Source: Planctomycetota bacterium (lineage in GTDB: Bacteria > Planctomycetota > Planctomycetia > Planctomycetales > Planctomycetaceae). From it: 32,188 nt of DNA. The notes beneath the pieces were generated by a model. That model was not told the DNA's origin and made no database searches. It worked only from the letters and a program-made list of their open reading frames with translations. The stretch lies in the NCBI GenBank assembly GCA_027618475.1, contig JAQCEJ010000060.1, forward strand, positions 1 to 32,188, in the 5' to 3' direction. This document shows positions 3,340-12,148 of this stretch, piece after piece; the first letter of the stretch is position 1, and each line of letters opens with the position of its first letter. The translations under genes and the position numbers were made by a program.

Positions 3340-5772
3340 ATGTCGTTGCTTCATCCTCTGTTGCTGTATGGACTAGCATTCACGGCGATTCCCGTGTTGC
3401 TGCATTTTTTATTGCGGCCGAAGCCGAAAAAACTCCTTTTTCCCGCTCTGAGGCTGGTCAAAATTCGCCGGAAGCAAAGCGTCCGCCGGCTGCGATTACG
3501 TCATATTTGGCTACTGTTGATGCGGATCGCGGTCATTACCCTCTTAATTCTCGCTCTCGCCCGACCATCGCTTCCCGCCGCTGATTATTCGCTGTCGGGT
3601 TCTGACTGGACACGACTGATCGTCTGTGTGGGGTTGGCAACCGCTCTCTATTATGGAGTTCTGCACTATTGGAAACGCAAATCGTTCTCCGATACCGTCT
3701 TCACTAAAAAGCGGGACCAACTTCGCGGCTGGGTGGCAGCATTTACGCTTTTGCTCATCGCGTTTGTTGTGATGTGGCCGTACCAAAAGCGAGTTGTTGC
3801 ACAGATTCGCGATCCGATACAGATGACGCGCGAAAATCTTCCGATCGCCGGAGTATTTATTTTCGATACCAGCCTGAGTATGGATTACCGTCAGGCAAAC
3901 GAATCGAGGCTCGCCGTCGCTCAGAATATCGCGGGTGAATTTCTCGAAAATCTTTCGCCCAACAGTCGTGTCGCTGTGATGGAGACCGGTGGAAAAGAAT
4001 TACCGATTTTCCAGGCCGATTTGCAATCGGCTCGTACACGAATTTCGTCGCTCGAAGTCAAGCCAGTCAGCCTGCCGTTCAATCATCACATCCGGCTCGC
4101 GCTTCAATTACAAAACGAAGATCGAGATCGTGTCTCTGATAATGCTCCCCCGACGGCAAGTGGAGAGCCGACCGATCAGTATATTCGCGAGATTTATATT
4201 TTCACCGATCTGGCGAGAAGCAATTGGCAACTGGCTGATGCCGACCGGCTACGTGACGAGATCGCGACGTGGCCGAACGGACATATCTATCTTATTGACG
4301 TCGGTTCAACGACTCCGGTGAATGTCGGCCTGACGTCGCTCCGTCTTTCCCGGCAGCAAGTCACACAGGGACAGGAATTTACGCTTAGCGCACGATTGCA
4401 GCAACGGGGGTTACAGAAGGACGACTTCACCGCCGAACTGCATCTGACCGACGAAACCGGTCGGATGGTAAAACAGGGGCAGACGACGGTTTCTCCGAAG
4501 GGGGACGAGGCCGTACAACTCGATTTTCGAGTAAGGCCACTGAAAATGCCAATCACACAGGGAGAAATTCGATTGGTGAACAGTGATCCGTTTTTACATG
4601 ACGACACACTCCGTTTCACCGCCGAGGTTGCACCGCCGTTGGAGGTGCTGGTGATTGCGCCAACTCAGGACGACGCCATGTTCTGGATGCCGGCCCTCGC
4701 TCCCAGCGAATCGGTTAAAGTGAAACGCAATCAGAACCGCTGCACGTATCGCAAGCCAGGGAGACTGACAGTGCAGGAGTTAACAGCTTTTGGCGCCGTC
4801 TGCCTGATCAACGTCCCCGAATTGTCGGTCGAATCGTGGTTGGCATTGTCGTCGTACGTACAAGCCGGCGGAGGGTTGTTCGTCGCACTCGGAAGCACCG
4901 AAATCAATCCGGTCTCTTATCAGAGCGAATCGGCACAGGAAGTCCTTCCCGGAAAACTCCTGGCGTACCTGCGTTTCAAGCCACCGACAACACTCGATTT
5001 GCGAAATCTCGATCACCCGTTGTTTCAATGGTTCAAAAATTGGGGAAGCGTCGGTGAACTTTCGACAGTAACGATCAACCGGTACTGGAAAGTCGAACCC
5101 TTTACCGATGCCGGAGTGTTGGTTCATTACGCCGACGAAAATGGGACACCGGCACTACTTGAGTTTTCTCACGGCCTGGGCCGCACACTGATGTTCACAA
5201 CGGCGGTCGATCGTACGCAGGAGTGGGGTAACATCCCGTTTGCGGGATGGAGCTTTCAGGCCTTTGCGCTGCAGACTGCGGAATATCTCGGTCAACGCTC
5301 GACACGTTCTCACAACTTCACGATCGGTGAAGAGATCCCCGTCTGGCTCAAGCCGGAATTAAAACTCGAAAAAATACTGTTGCGAAAACCCGAGGGACAG
5401 CAGCAGGCACTAGAGATCGGCGGAGAATCATCTCCTCTGTTGGTTACCGCACAAACCGATCAACTGGGACAATATCAGGTAATCGCCATGGAAGAAACAA
5501 TTCCGTTCGAAACCGGTTTCAGCGTGAATATGTCTCCCGGTGAGAGCGATTTTTCACGCGTCAGCGAAGAGGATCTGCAGACGCTGCTCGGAGATGGACG
5601 CTTCAGCCTCGCCCGGCATCTCGAAGACCTGGAAATGAAAGTCGGTTTTGCCCGCATTGGTATCGAGGTTTTCCCTTGGCTGACGCTGGCACTTCTGGCG
5701 TTTTTCTGTATCGAACACGTCTCGGCGAATCGATTTTACGAACCCGAAGAAACCAACGTCCTCACGGCGTAA
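3340..5772 (+). CDS. BatA-type VWA membrane protein with glutamine-amidotransferase-like region
   Basis: The protein has 810 residues. The N-terminus (1-80) is a typical BatA/aerotolerance-regulator N-terminal domain: a hydrophobic helix at 5-25, the basic RPKPKKLLFPALRL stretch, and a second helix at about 57-76. Two more membrane helices follow (about 92-110 and 130-148). A von Willebrand factor A domain begins near 170 with the metal-ion-dependent adhesion motif DTSLS (176-180). A class-I glutamine-amidotransferase-like fold probably lies near 485-525 (VQAGGGLFVALGS), and a last membrane helix lies near the C-terminus. The bulk of the protein should be outside the cytoplasmic membrane. The ribosome binding site is weak. 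Bat proteins act with MoxR ATPases in envelope stress or protein-complex assembly, but the exact role in planctomycetes is unknown. It opens a three-gene group. Confidence 0.88.
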   Translation: MSLLHPLLLYGLAFTAIPVLLHFLLRPKPKKLLFPALRLVKIRRKQSVRRLRLRHIWLLLMRIAVITLLILALARPSLPAADYSLSGSDWTRLIVCVGLATALYYGVLHYWKRKSFSDTVFTKKRDQLRGWVAAFTLLLIAFVVMWPYQKRVVAQIRDPIQMTRENLPIAGVFIFDTSLSMDYRQANESRLAVAQNIAGEFLENLSPNSRVAVMETGGKELPIFQADLQSARTRISSLEVKPVSLPFNHHIRLALQLQNEDRDRVSDNAPPTASGEPTDQYIREIYIFTDLARSNWQLADADRLRDEIATWPNGHIYLIDVGSTTPVNVGLTSLRLSRQQVTQGQEFTLSARLQQRGLQKDDFTAELHLTDETGRMVKQGQTTVSPKGDEAVQLDFRVRPLKMPITQGEIRLVNSDPFLHDDTLRFTAEVAPPLEVLVIAPTQDDAMFWMPALAPSESVKVKRNQNRCTYRKPGRLTVQELTAFGAVCLINVPELSVESWLALSSYVQAGGGLFVALGSTEINPVSYQSESAQEVLPGKLLAYLRFKPPTTLDLRNLDHPLFQWFKNWGSVGELSTVTINRYWKVEPFTDAGVLVHYADENGTPALLEFSHGLGRTLMFTTAVDRTQEWGNIPFAGWSFQAFALQTAEYLGQRSTRSHNFTIGEEIPVWLKPELKLEKILLRKPEGQQQALEIGGESSPLLVTAQTDQLGQYQVIAMEETIPFETGFSVNMSPGESDFSRVSEEDLQTLLGDGRFSLARHLEDLEMKVGFARIGIEVFPWLTLALLAFFCIEHVSANRFYEPEETNVLTA

Positions 5773-5939: not shown

Positions 5940-8210
5940 ATGAAGCTTGTCTTCGAGCCGGCCTGGCCTTGGCCGATAATTCTGCTATTTGCTGCGGCGC
6001 TTTGGGGGATGGTGGCTGTCACCTATCCGCGGCGGGTTCGTCATTTACCGACCGGAGTTCGTCGGTTTCTCATCGGTGCCCGTTACGCCGTAACGTTGCT
6101 GCTGTTATTTACGATGGTCCGCCCGGCACTGGAGTATTCGACATCCGACAAGAAAGACACCGTAATCCTCATTGGTATCGACGTCAGCCGGAGCATGTCG
6201 ACGCGCGACGGTCCCGGAGGTCAAAGCCGTTTTGAGTTTTTGAAGAAGACGCTGCAAGAGAACGAACCCGCGTGGAAAAAACTTGGCAGTGAGCTCGAGA
6301 TTCGCAAGCTCACATTTGATGAAGCGGCTCTGCCGATCGAAGAACTCCCCGAAAATCCCACGGGAAACCAGTCGGCGATCGGCGAGTTACTAAAATTGGT
6401 GCCGTCGCTTGCGGGAAGCAAACGGGTCGCGGCTCTGTTTTTGCTAAGTGACGGAGCCCATCGGGCGTTACCGCCGCATGATGCCGACCCACGTACCGAA
6501 GCCCGCGTACTTGGACAGCAAGAAATTCCCATCTATCCTGTACCGTTTGGAAGTTCCGGCATATCAGAGAACGCCGTCGACCTTTCGGTCGAGGATCTGC
6601 TCGTCGATTCGCTTGCATTTGAGAAAAAACTGGTTCCGTTGACGTTCAAAGTCCGCGCGCTCGGGGCAGCGAAGAAAAAAGTACAGGTTCGCATCCTTAT
6701 TGAAGACCGCAACGGTGTAAAGATTGGTTCGTCGGGTGAACTCAAAGTTCCCACGGCGACGAGCCAGAGCCGTACCGCGCAGGAAATCGAAGTCAAGACC
6801 GTTTCGGAAGTGATCCCTGTCGAACTTTCGTTCGTTCCTGATCAGGTCGGTGAATTCAAAATCGCCGTCGAAGTTGTTCCGCTCGACGGCGAACTCAAGA
6901 TCCCTAATAACCGTATCGAATCAATTCTCACCGTGCAGAAAGGGGGAATCAATATCGCGTATTTCGATTCTCCGCGCCCCGAACAACGCTGGATTCGATT
7001 GCTCAATACATCAGAGAAAATCCAGCTCGATTTCGATCCAATCAAGTGGCGGCCAGATTTGATTCAGCCGATCGTCAATCCGGAATTTCTTAAACCTGGT
7101 AAATACGATGTCTATCTCATCGGTGACGTCCCGGCAGCGGCATTTGGCGCGGACCTGTTACGCCAACTTGCCGCACGGGTCGACGAAGGGGCAGGACTGA
7201 TGATGATCGGCGGCGTGAATAGTTTTGGTGCCGGAGGTTACGCTTCAACGCCGCTTGTCGATTTGCTTCCCGTCGCGATGCGCGTGACAGATCGTCAGGA
7301 TGGCGTGACGATTTCTCCAGACTTGCATTTCGCCGGCGATCAGCAGATGTTGCCGACCGAGCAAGGTCTCGATCATTATTTAATGATGCTCGATCGAAAC
7401 GACAATCGTGGACGATGGGAGTCGCTTCCGCCTCTGATGGGGGTGAACAAACTCCGTCCGAAAAATGACGCCGTGCAGATACTCGCCGAGACTGACAAGA
7501 AAGTTCCGCTGTTACTCGCTCAGGAGGTCGGGAAGGCACGCGTGCTCGCGTTCGCCGGAGACACGACCTATCTCTGGCAACTCTCGGGGTTCGAGACGTT
7601 TCATCAACGATTCTGGCGTCAGGTGATATTCTGGCTGGCGCATAAAGAGTTCGAGGGAGACCAACCGGTTTGGGTCCGCGCCGAACCGCGTGTGACGCGC
7701 ATGGGAGGGGGAGTCGAACTTATACTCGGTGCCCGTAACGAAGACGGGTCTCCGATGCCCGAAGCACAATTTGAAGTTGAAGTGATTAATCCGAAAGGGG
7801 AATCGACGAAGCCGACGCCTCAGCGAACGAGCCAGTCGCATCGCATCGACTATCGCAGCACGCAGATCCCCGGCGATTATTGGGTGCGAGTCTCGGCTCG
7901 CAAAGACGGAAATTCTGTCGGTCCCGATGCCTATACGCGATTCATTATCAAGGAACAAGACCTCGAACTCGATAACCCCTCTGCCGACCCAACCTTGCTG
8001 AATGAAATCGCGGCGTTATCCGGAGGCTCGTCGATTCCCCCCGAATCGCTCGCTGATTTTATCGCACAGAAGCAATCACAAGGGGGGTGGAACCCTGAAT
8101 TGATCCAGCATTTACGCATTCCACTCTATGATAACTGGTGGGTCGTAATGGGATTCGTCAGTTTGTTATCGAGTGAATGGCTGGTGAGGAAGTTAAGAGG
8201 GCTGGTGTGA
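5940..8210 (+). CDS. VWA domain membrane protein, second of the pair
   Basis: The protein has 756 residues. Two N-terminal membrane helices (about 11-29 and 45-62) are followed by a VWA domain with the metal-binding motif DVSRS (81-85). A middle beta-rich region follows. A glutamine-amidotransferase-like segment around 400-440 contains VDEGAGLMMIGGVNSFGAGGY; families with this layout lack amidotransferase activity as far as known. A C-terminal helix near 730-750 re-enters the membrane. It resembles the preceding gene product in plan (membrane, VWA, GATase-like, membrane) but not closely in sequence. I see no clear Shine-Dalgarno at the ATG, which is common in planctomycetes. It probably forms an envelope complex with its neighbours. 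Confidence 0.87.
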   Translation: MKLVFEPAWPWPIILLFAAALWGMVAVTYPRRVRHLPTGVRRFLIGARYAVTLLLLFTMVRPALEYSTSDKKDTVILIGIDVSRSMSTRDGPGGQSRFEFLKKTLQENEPAWKKLGSELEIRKLTFDEAALPIEELPENPTGNQSAIGELLKLVPSLAGSKRVAALFLLSDGAHRALPPHDADPRTEARVLGQQEIPIYPVPFGSSGISENAVDLSVEDLLVDSLAFEKKLVPLTFKVRALGAAKKKVQVRILIEDRNGVKIGSSGELKVPTATSQSRTAQEIEVKTVSEVIPVELSFVPDQVGEFKIAVEVVPLDGELKIPNNRIESILTVQKGGINIAYFDSPRPEQRWIRLLNTSEKIQLDFDPIKWRPDLIQPIVNPEFLKPGKYDVYLIGDVPAAAFGADLLRQLAARVDEGAGLMMIGGVNSFGAGGYASTPLVDLLPVAMRVTDRQDGVTISPDLHFAGDQQMLPTEQGLDHYLMMLDRNDNRGRWESLPPLMGVNKLRPKNDAVQILAETDKKVPLLLAQEVGKARVLAFAGDTTYLWQLSGFETFHQRFWRQVIFWLAHKEFEGDQPVWVRAEPRVTRMGGGVELILGARNEDGSPMPEAQFEVEVINPKGESTKPTPQRTSQSHRIDYRSTQIPGDYWVRVSARKDGNSVGPDAYTRFIIKEQDLELDNPSADPTLLNEIAALSGGSSIPPESLADFIAQKQSQGGWNPELIQHLRIPLYDNWWVVMGFVSLLSSEWLVRKLRGLV

Positions 8211-8446: not shown

Positions 8447-11050
8447 ATGTCGACCACGCTGCAACAGCCGGGTCTGGAAAATCGTTCCGGATACGTGGAC
8501 TCGCACGACTTCATTTCGCTCAAATTGGCGAAGACGCGATCAACGATTAAGACGACGGAGATGCTGACGTCGCTCATGGGGGCACTCGCTCTCGTCGTCG
8601 GTTATCTATTCCTGTTCGTGATAGCCGATCATTGGCTCGTTCCGCAGGGGATTGGATTCGTTCCACGACTGTTGCTGTTGGGGGGACTTGTCGCATCAAC
8701 CGCAGTCTGGATGATCTACAAGGTGATCATTCCATACGTCAAGAATGTGCATAACCTCTATGCCGCGAATATGCTCGAAAAAAACGAGCCCGATTTTCGA
8801 GGCAACCTGCTGAACTTAATCGACCTTCAACGGAGCGGCCGGACGATCTCTCCTCATATCATGACGGCACTCGAAAAGCGTGCGGCGGTCCGTCTGGCCG
8901 ATATCAATGTCGAAGAAGCAATCGACAATCGATTGTTGCTTCGCACGGCCTATGCTTTACTTGCACTGGTCGTCGTTTCATGTCTGTACACCATTTTTTC
9001 ACCAAAACCGATCGCTCCGTCGCTATGGGCAGCGCTCCTGCCGACGCCGAATCGAACCGTGGCGACGCGAACCGAAATCTCCGCCGTAAATCCCGGTAAC
9101 GCCGAGATTCTAGCCCGCAGCCAGTTCGAAGTGACCGCCGATATTCTCGGCGAACTCCCCGACGAAGTGACGTTGCGATATACGACGATCGACCGTCGAC
9201 ACGTCGAAGAACCGATCCGCATGTATCCGGTCGAAGAAGGACTCCGCTCGTTCCGAGGGATCATCACCGGCGAAAATGGTAAAGGTATCCTGCAGAATTT
9301 CACATATTCGATTTTGGCGGGAGATGCGGTCAGTCCTGAATTCGCCGTCACGGTTAAACAGCCTCCGTCGGCCGTGGTCGACAATGTGCGGTTCATGTAT
9401 CCGCGTTACATGGGACTTGATCAGAAAACGGAATCGGGGGGGCACATCGATGCCTGGGAAGGGACATCCGTTAGCATTCAGGCCACTGCCAACAAACCGG
9501 TAACATCAGCATTGTTGCTGTTTATCGATAACGAAAACTCCGCAGCGAAGGCGGAAGAAATCAGTATGGACATCGAAGACGGCACTCACCTTTCGCTGGA
9601 GTGGTCGTTGTCGATTCGTTCCGACGGCACGTCACCCAAGTTTTATCGCATTCAATGTCGTGACGATGCGGGGAATACCGATCCCGCCCCGACATTGTAC
9701 TCCCTCAATATCCGTCCCGATCTCCCTCCGGAAGTGACACTGCACGACCCGACCCAGGATCTCGAACTCCCGGCGAATGCGACTGTTCCTCTCGCCGTGA
9801 CAGCACAAGACCCCGATTTCATGCTGCGATATGTCATCTTGCGGGTGGAAAAAGAGGGTGAACCTGTCTGGGAAGAACCGTTGATGGAGGGGCAGCCGCG
9901 GCAGGATTTTCAAGGTTTTCACGACTTCAGGCTCTCACCGCTAAATCTCCAGCCGGGCGAAATCATTTCATTCTGGATCGAAGCGCACGACAACAAAGAG
10001 CCCGTGGCCAATCGACGGTCGACGCCGAAACTCAATATCACTGTTCAGGCCCCCGTCTCTGAGGAAGAAGCCCAGAAGTTGTTGGACGAGCAAAAACAGC
10101 AGCAGAAGGAAAACCTCGAACAGAACGCCGACGACGACAACCAGCGAGGTGATGAAGGAGAAAATAGCGGCGAATCACAACCAACCGACGATACTGAAAG
10201 CCAATCAGACGAATCTAACGCCAATGACGAGGGCGATCCGCAAGAAGAATCTTCCGATCAGCCTGGGGCCGAAGAGACCGATGAGACCGATTCTTCTAAG
10301 GAAGGGAACAACGGAAACGACGGCGAACCAAAATCGGGAGATCAGAAGTCACCCAAACCCACCACTGGCGATCAACAGATGCCTTCGGACGAAAAGCCCA
10401 AGGAGAGTCAAGGTGGTGACGGTGAAAAGCCTGGCGATGAGCAACAATTGAAATCCGATGGCAGTGACGACGATGAAGCGCTGCGCCGGCTGTTGAAAAA
10501 ACAGCAGGATCAGACCAAGAACAGTCAAGATTCGTCAGAGGATGAGTCATCGAAAGAGGGAGAAGCGAATCAGGAAAAAGACCCGACAGACGACGGTTCT
10601 AAAGATTCAGATAAGACCGCCGATACAGCAGAACGAAAAGGTGATCAACCGGCTGACGAAAAGATGACGTCTGACAAGGAGGACGAATCGGCGTCCGATG
10701 GAAGCGACCCCAAAGAAGGGGACACAGACACGAACGATCCTCAAGCCGAAAAAGATGACCAGAAGAAAGGCAACGGCGACAATTCATCCGATGGTGATAT
10801 GCCCGAGAACGACAACCCCCAGGAAGCGGGCGATACCAACGACAAAGGCAAATCAAAACCTTCCGACAAAGATGACAAACAGGAACCGCAGGAAGGCCCG
10901 GGCGAAGAGAATCAGAAACCAACTAATCCGTTGAAGAAACCAAACAAGTCAAAAAAGGGTGATGTCGAAGAGGGAGAAATTTCCGAGGACGATGATCCCG
11001 ACGCCGATGACGAGAACAAGACCACGTCGCAAAAGAAAAAATCGGACTAA
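8447..11050 (+). CDS. DUF4175-like membrane protein, N-terminal part (ends at an internal TAA)
   Basis: This 867-residue open frame starts at an ATG with GAAAGG seven bases upstream. Membrane helices lie at about 39-62, 72-94 and 163-185. A large extracytoplasmic region of beta-sandwich-like repeats runs from about 190 to 540. From about 545 on, the protein is an extreme low-complexity tail of Asp, Glu, Ser, Lys, Gln and Asn, surely disordered. The plan fits the DUF4175-type proteins that accompany BatA/VWA genes; their biochemical role is unknown. The frame stops at TAA 11048-11050, but the same reading frame continues to 12148 with the same composition and then a folded C-terminal domain. 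I read this as the 5' two thirds of one 1233-codon gene. Confidence 0.82.
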   Translation: MSTTLQQPGLENRSGYVDSHDFISLKLAKTRSTIKTTEMLTSLMGALALVVGYLFLFVIADHWLVPQGIGFVPRLLLLGGLVASTAVWMIYKVIIPYVKNVHNLYAANMLEKNEPDFRGNLLNLIDLQRSGRTISPHIMTALEKRAAVRLADINVEEAIDNRLLLRTAYALLALVVVSCLYTIFSPKPIAPSLWAALLPTPNRTVATRTEISAVNPGNAEILARSQFEVTADILGELPDEVTLRYTTIDRRHVEEPIRMYPVEEGLRSFRGIITGENGKGILQNFTYSILAGDAVSPEFAVTVKQPPSAVVDNVRFMYPRYMGLDQKTESGGHIDAWEGTSVSIQATANKPVTSALLLFIDNENSAAKAEEISMDIEDGTHLSLEWSLSIRSDGTSPKFYRIQCRDDAGNTDPAPTLYSLNIRPDLPPEVTLHDPTQDLELPANATVPLAVTAQDPDFMLRYVILRVEKEGEPVWEEPLMEGQPRQDFQGFHDFRLSPLNLQPGEIISFWIEAHDNKEPVANRRSTPKLNITVQAPVSEEEAQKLLDEQKQQQKENLEQNADDDNQRGDEGENSGESQPTDDTESQSDESNANDEGDPQEESSDQPGAEETDETDSSKEGNNGNDGEPKSGDQKSPKPTTGDQQMPSDEKPKESQGGDGEKPGDEQQLKSDGSDDDEALRRLLKKQQDQTKNSQDSSEDESSKEGEANQEKDPTDDGSKDSDKTADTAERKGDQPADEKMTSDKEDESASDGSDPKEGDTDTNDPQAEKDDQKKGNGDNSSDGDMPENDNPQEAGDTNDKGKSKPSDKDDKQEPQEGPGEENQKPTNPLKKPNKSKKGDVEEGEISEDDDPDADDENKTTSQKKKSD
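11048..11050 (+). other. In-frame TAA splitting the DUF4175-like gene
   Basis: The stop lies within GGACTAAAAAAAAAAGAAC, where the T is followed by ten A. Upstream (from 8447) and downstream (to 12148) are in the same frame with no other stop. A single A-to-T change (AAA to TAA) or G-to-T change (GAA to TAA) in a Lys/Glu-rich stretch would create it. A6 and A10 runs flank it, so compensating polymerase slippage could also bypass it. A base-calling error beside a homopolymer is the dull alternative. Confidence 0.8.
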
Positions 11051-11131
11051 AAAAAAAAGAACCCTGCCGATAACGATGTCGATTCCCAAGACGCTGACAC
11101 AGAGGAGGATTCCAGTCGCGATCCGAAAAAC

Positions 11132-12148
11132 ATGAAAAAGAAGAATAAGTCGCCTACGAACAAAATGCCTCCGGGAGAGCAAACCGACGAAGTCGATGAA
11201 TCGGAGGATGGCGAAGATGGTGAATCGAAGAATTCGAAGTCGCCCGATCAAGGAGACGCCATCAATAACGACAAAGGTATGAAGAAGAAAGGAGCGAGTC
11301 GCAATCAGGCAGACTCCGATTCTTCATCGGATACCGAGGGTTCAAGCGACGACTCGGCCGATTCCGACAAACAGACCGGCGAAGCAGGTGATAATTCGAA
11401 ATCGTCCGATGCAAAACAGCAAATGGAAGACGCCGAGAATCAGCAGGATAAAAAACCTGCAAATGGCGAAAAGAATGACGACGATCAGAAGTCACCCGAC
11501 GGTGATAAAGGGGGAGAGAATCAGGGCCAGGACGGCGACGGTGGGGGTAAAGGAAAAGGGAAAGGCCAAAGTAAAGGAAGTTCGAGCGACGAGCCGAGTG
11601 AGCAACCCGGCCAGGAGGGAGGCAAAGGAGGCAAACGCGGGCAGGTCTCTGGCAGCGGCAACACTTCCGGTGACGCGAAATCCGGCGGAGAAGGCACCTC
11701 CGGAGAGGGAAACTCGCCGTACGATCTTGAGGACGCCGATGCCGCCAACCTCGAAGATAAAGAAAAAGCCGTCAATCTCGTTCTCAAAGAGCTCGAAGAT
11801 CAACTCAAACGAGGCGAACTCGATCCCGAACTGCTAAAGGAAATGGGATGGACCGAAAAGGAAATGAAGAAGTTCGTCGACCGCATGCAACAACAGTTGC
11901 AGCAGCCTGAACCTGATGAAGCAACCCCTGAAGCTCTCGCGAAACGAATTCAGTTCGAAGAGATGCTGAAGAATCTCGACGTCGCCGGTCAGGCACGCGA
12001 GCGCACCGGTGCCGACGTTAAAAAATCGCTCGGTGAAGAAATCGGTCCTCGGCGTCTTGATGTTCCGCCGGAATTCCGCGAAGCATACGAAGCTTACACG
12101 AAGAGTCTGTCGAAATACAAAAAACAACCGACCGGCAAATCGAAGTAG
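11132..12148 (+). CDS. DUF4175-like protein, C-terminal part (continuation of the 8447 gene)
   Basis: This 338-residue frame is in phase with the upstream gene and separated from its TAA by 27 open codons. Residues 1-195 continue the acidic, Lys/Ser/Gly-rich disordered tail. From about 200 a folded, charged helical domain follows (ELDPELLKEMGWTEKEMKKF and onward to the end), which I recall as the conserved C-terminus of the full-length planctomycete proteins. The ATG at 11132 has no usable ribosome binding site: the only AGGAGG (11103-11108) is 23 bases away, and no in-frame start codon lies at the right distance from it. It is therefore unlikely to be an independent gene. It would be made only by readthrough, slippage or reinitiation, or not at all if the stop is a real mutation. 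Confidence 0.75.
   Translation: MKKKNKSPTNKMPPGEQTDEVDESEDGEDGESKNSKSPDQGDAINNDKGMKKKGASRNQADSDSSSDTEGSSDDSADSDKQTGEAGDNSKSSDAKQQMEDAENQQDKKPANGEKNDDDQKSPDGDKGGENQGQDGDGGGKGKGKGQSKGSSSDEPSEQPGQEGGKGGKRGQVSGSGNTSGDAKSGGEGTSGEGNSPYDLEDADAANLEDKEKAVNLVLKELEDQLKRGELDPELLKEMGWTEKEMKKFVDRMQQQLQQPEPDEATPEALAKRIQFEEMLKNLDVAGQARERTGADVKKSLGEEIGPRRLDVPPEFREAYEAYTKSLSKYKKQPTGKSK

Follow-up and report, generated by a model that had tools for sequence, protein, structure and literature searches.

A premature stop codon lying close to a long run of adenines, with a conserved C-terminal domain encoded beyond it, is known from tssM1 of Citrobacter rodentium, where an A11 run is found 28 bases before the stop and transcriptional slippage restores the frame (PMC4256274). 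Slippage by the RNA polymerase of E. coli is not detectable on fewer than eight A's (PMC6260861), and sliding of the ribosome becomes relevant with more than two consecutive AAA codons (PMC4363877). Another term of comparison is the nonsense-interrupted bacterial gene, namely a recent pseudogene or truncated allele, in which one in-frame stop is followed by an intact frame and a conserved domain, the orthologues being full-length. The gene presented here, from a member of the Planctomycetota, resembles both systems. It has in common with tssM1 (PMC4256274) the vicinity of the stop to a long A-run and the conserved C-terminal domain past the stop, but here the stop precedes the run, the frame is equal on both sides and a single slip is without effect. 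The single stop, the intact frame and domain beyond it and the full-length orthologues are likewise those of a recent pseudogene, even if the present case comes from one assembly only, the sole genome of its genus, and is thus a candidate in which the base and its fixation are both presumed.

The window, i.e., the whole stretch of 32,188 nucleotides that was analyzed, corresponds to contig 100 in a draft genome of 5.93 Mb and 218 contigs, and all features of the gene lie on its forward strand. Reading from the ATG at 8447, we find 867 codons, a TAA at 11048-11050, 365 additional codons in the same phase (11051-12148) and the final stop at 12146-12148. The preliminary description had placed the two open reading frames, 8447-11050 (867 amino acids) and 11132-12148 (338 amino acids), in a common phase divided by an in-frame TAA, and this is borne out by their coordinates as well as by a continuous coding signature: when a codon model was trained with 432 kb from this genome and applied in 150-base blocks, the frame of the gene had the highest of the six coding scores in each block, ahead of the stop and beyond it, through to the gene end. 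The TAA does stand at the head of a run of ten A's (11049-11058), the first two of which are its own last two bases. The A6 run reported upstream is also present, at 11036-11041, but the spacer between the two runs has seven bases (TCGGACT) rather than eleven. The genome, with its 5.93 Mb, has only four runs of at least ten A's, including one at a contig end, and no A-run longer than eight is found across 35 homologous open reading frames. The end of contig 211 (L252, 64000-66016) consists of a 16-base A run, which is probably an assembly-end artefact.

The upstream frame encodes N-terminal membrane helices, Ig-like beta domains and the first part of an acidic linker. The conserved N-terminal domain (8447-10090) has 35-53% identity across the family and is followed by the low-complexity, acidic and lysine-rich linker containing the stop (10091-11716), then by a conserved helical C-terminal domain (11717-12145) that is undecayed. 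In the linker, several KKK runs (11054, 11135 and 11282) are clustered around the stop, between 10930 and 11290; the linkers of the homologues contain only six such runs in 22,427 residues. The window protein has no match in Pfam or NCBIfam, and its earlier designation as DUF4175-like must be weakened accordingly: PF13779 (DUF4175) is touched by the N-terminal domain of 6 of 27 homologues, with a best E value of 0.0025 that does not reach the Pfam gathering score, and the literature collection searched contained no paper linking DUF4175 with planctomycetes. Residues 1-548, modelled with AlphaFold at a mean pLDDT of 85, show N-terminal helices followed by beta-sandwich domains. Foldseek matches this model to unspecific Ig-domain chains at low TM-scores, from which no function follows; the structure model of the C-terminal domain is poor (pLDDT 58). 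Upstream, on the same strand, lie the genes for a BatA/von Willebrand A protein (3340-5772) and a glutamine-amidotransferase-like protein (5940-8210), and the order of these two and the interrupted gene is kept in several relatives. The protein may act as a membrane-anchored component of the cell envelope.

To place the stop within the family, the two conserved domains, N-terminal and C-terminal, served as separate queries against 59 relatives, and the contiguous cases were fetched. The two domains lie in a single unbroken reading frame in all 35 full-length homologues (1142-1668 amino acids), the linker between them measuring 433-990 residues. A separate collection of named genomes, searched with a six-sequence alignment, yielded 29 loci with both domains in one frame, many of them from the same organisms as the 35. 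In a wider search, covering 170 genomes from the same family, 155 had the N-terminal domain, and these span all 58 genera sampled. From the list of 155 genomes, 31 short frames were fetched and checked base by base: 30 end at a contig end, the remaining one being that of a draft metagenome-assembled genome with a frameshift in the N-terminal domain and an open linker. No stop in the linker was found in any other genome examined, part of the 155 being read as far as the C-terminal domain. The acidic linker is also a hotspot of assembly breaks, with a contig end inside it in at least 41 of the 155 family genomes against about 15-19 expected, as computed from rounded contig counts.

The same survey bears on the possibility that the C-terminal part is translated on its own, by a restart at the ATG at 11132 or by coupled reinitiation. 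The sequence ATG AAA AAG at this position, 82 bases past the stop, resembles a common start. As previously noted, however, no ribosome binding site serves the downstream part: pairing with the anti-Shine-Dalgarno sequence is absent at all four in-frame ATGs past the stop (11132-11134, which is the first, and those at 11165, 11279 and 11423), although Shine-Dalgarno signals are also weak at several ordinary genes of the window. A separate C-terminal gene was found in none of the relatives examined, the homologues being single genes; a naturally split gene, the outcome that the preliminary description considered fatal to its own proposal, is therefore rejected, and two working genes are very unlikely.

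When a draft genome has a stop next to a homopolymer, stories of recoding come easily, and two of the four options originally listed, readthrough and compensating slippage at the two A-runs, belong to this kind. The run of ten A's is long enough for slippage by RNA polymerase in E. coli tests, and tssM1 with its A11 run provides a precedent. Slippage, however, alters the frame downstream of the run; since the stop comes ahead of the ten A's, a slip within them cannot skip it, and this order thus rules out the simple form of such stories. All combinations of changes from -2 to +2 at the A6 run with changes from -3 to +3 at the A10 run were tried, and altering the length of the latter alone never removes the stop. 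No single length change of the tssM1 type leads to a lasting open frame, which requires matched changes at both runs, the upstream one being an A6 only and hence below the length of eight A's at which slippage is detected (PMC6260861); single and paired slips were both rejected on these grounds. Readings with one extra A would furthermore insert I and L, residues that are rare in the linker. The consecutive AAA codons ahead of the TAA are two. Regarding readthrough, the genome yielded 48 tRNA loci, none with a stop-reading anticodon (RF00005 matches only, which a divergent selenocysteine tRNA could escape), so a suppressor tRNA was rejected, and the relatives have no conserved stop at this site that would suggest reassignment. 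That some full-length protein is made by readthrough or by paired compensating slips at A6 and A10 is consequently extremely doubtful. A real, fixed and leaky stop, at which low-level readthrough of UAA-polyA or paired slips would give both a short and a full-length membrane protein, is the least credible of all readings. There is no sign of a trick by the cell to read past the stop.

The two other options, a fresh nonsense mutation and a sequencing or assembly error, survive and share one observation, namely the state of the region past the stop. The C-terminal domain of the window protein agrees with the family at its invariant positions and ranks first in conservation among 27 sequences, the comparison set having been picked by similarity to the window and thus favouring it. 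Of the 3285 possible downstream substitutions, 158 create a stop (about 1 in 21), so that about 20 random substitutions should suffice for a second stop to appear. An intact coding frame together with so well conserved a domain indicates that the break is either recent or not real; the earlier argument from the intact domain stands in this form, its alternative of a bypass having found no support.

We favour a private and recent nonsense mutation in a gene that is a single frame elsewhere in the family, to which we assign a probability of about 0.52. The single-frame orthologues and the lack of decay past the stop are as expected of recent nonsense alleles. In the proposed mechanism, one base substitution within the linker would have turned a codon into TAA; translation would end after residue 867, and the product would retain the membrane anchor, the Ig-like domains and a portion of the linker while losing the C-terminal helical domain. 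The base is probably real, the change recent and the C-terminal part not made. Against this reading, the gene is present in all 58 genera sampled, so loss of the C-terminal domain should have some cost, and a plain base error gains in likelihood from this. In addition, the stop coincides in position with the longest homopolymer in the gene: there are about 491 single-base routes to a stop in the gene, only few of which touch the A10 run, a coincidence that is noteworthy, but picked after the fact.

A wrong base in the draft assembly, the gene being intact in the organism, is a serious possibility, albeit one that we hold less probable than the recent mutation. It would accord with the fragmentation of this draft in 218 contigs, with the excess of contig ends in the linkers of the family, with the rarity in this genome of homopolymers like that adjoining the stop, with the wide distribution of a gene whose truncation should matter and with the absence of any decay in the C-terminal domain. 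Moreover, two draft metagenome-assembled relatives (L195:1365-2944 and L200:5501-7154) have frameshifts elsewhere in the same gene, within the N-terminal domain. Yet homopolymer sequencing errors are usually insertions or deletions, and here one frame is kept on both sides. The stretch around the stop is also single copy in the genome, so reads should assemble cleanly, and the longest exact repeat within the linker has 15 bases, which together make a repeat-driven misjoin unlikely; this candidate was rejected. Tandem repeats are trivial ones only. Finally, a survey of 432 kb from this genome brought out no other plain nonsense change of the kind. On contig 172, near 39589 (L127:17778-20000, minus strand), a dehydrogenase/HEAT/cytochrome c gene stops at a TGA, past which about 140-180 residues without homologous match precede the HEAT and cytochrome c parts in the same frame; this break resembles an insertion more than a simple nonsense mutation.

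Since the linker breaks many assemblies, many of the draft annotations will show the protein in truncated form. The interrupted gene belongs to a family that has no matching curated entry: large planctomycete membrane proteins in which an acidic linker leads to a conserved C-terminal domain, adjoining BatA-like genes and widespread in these planctomycetes.
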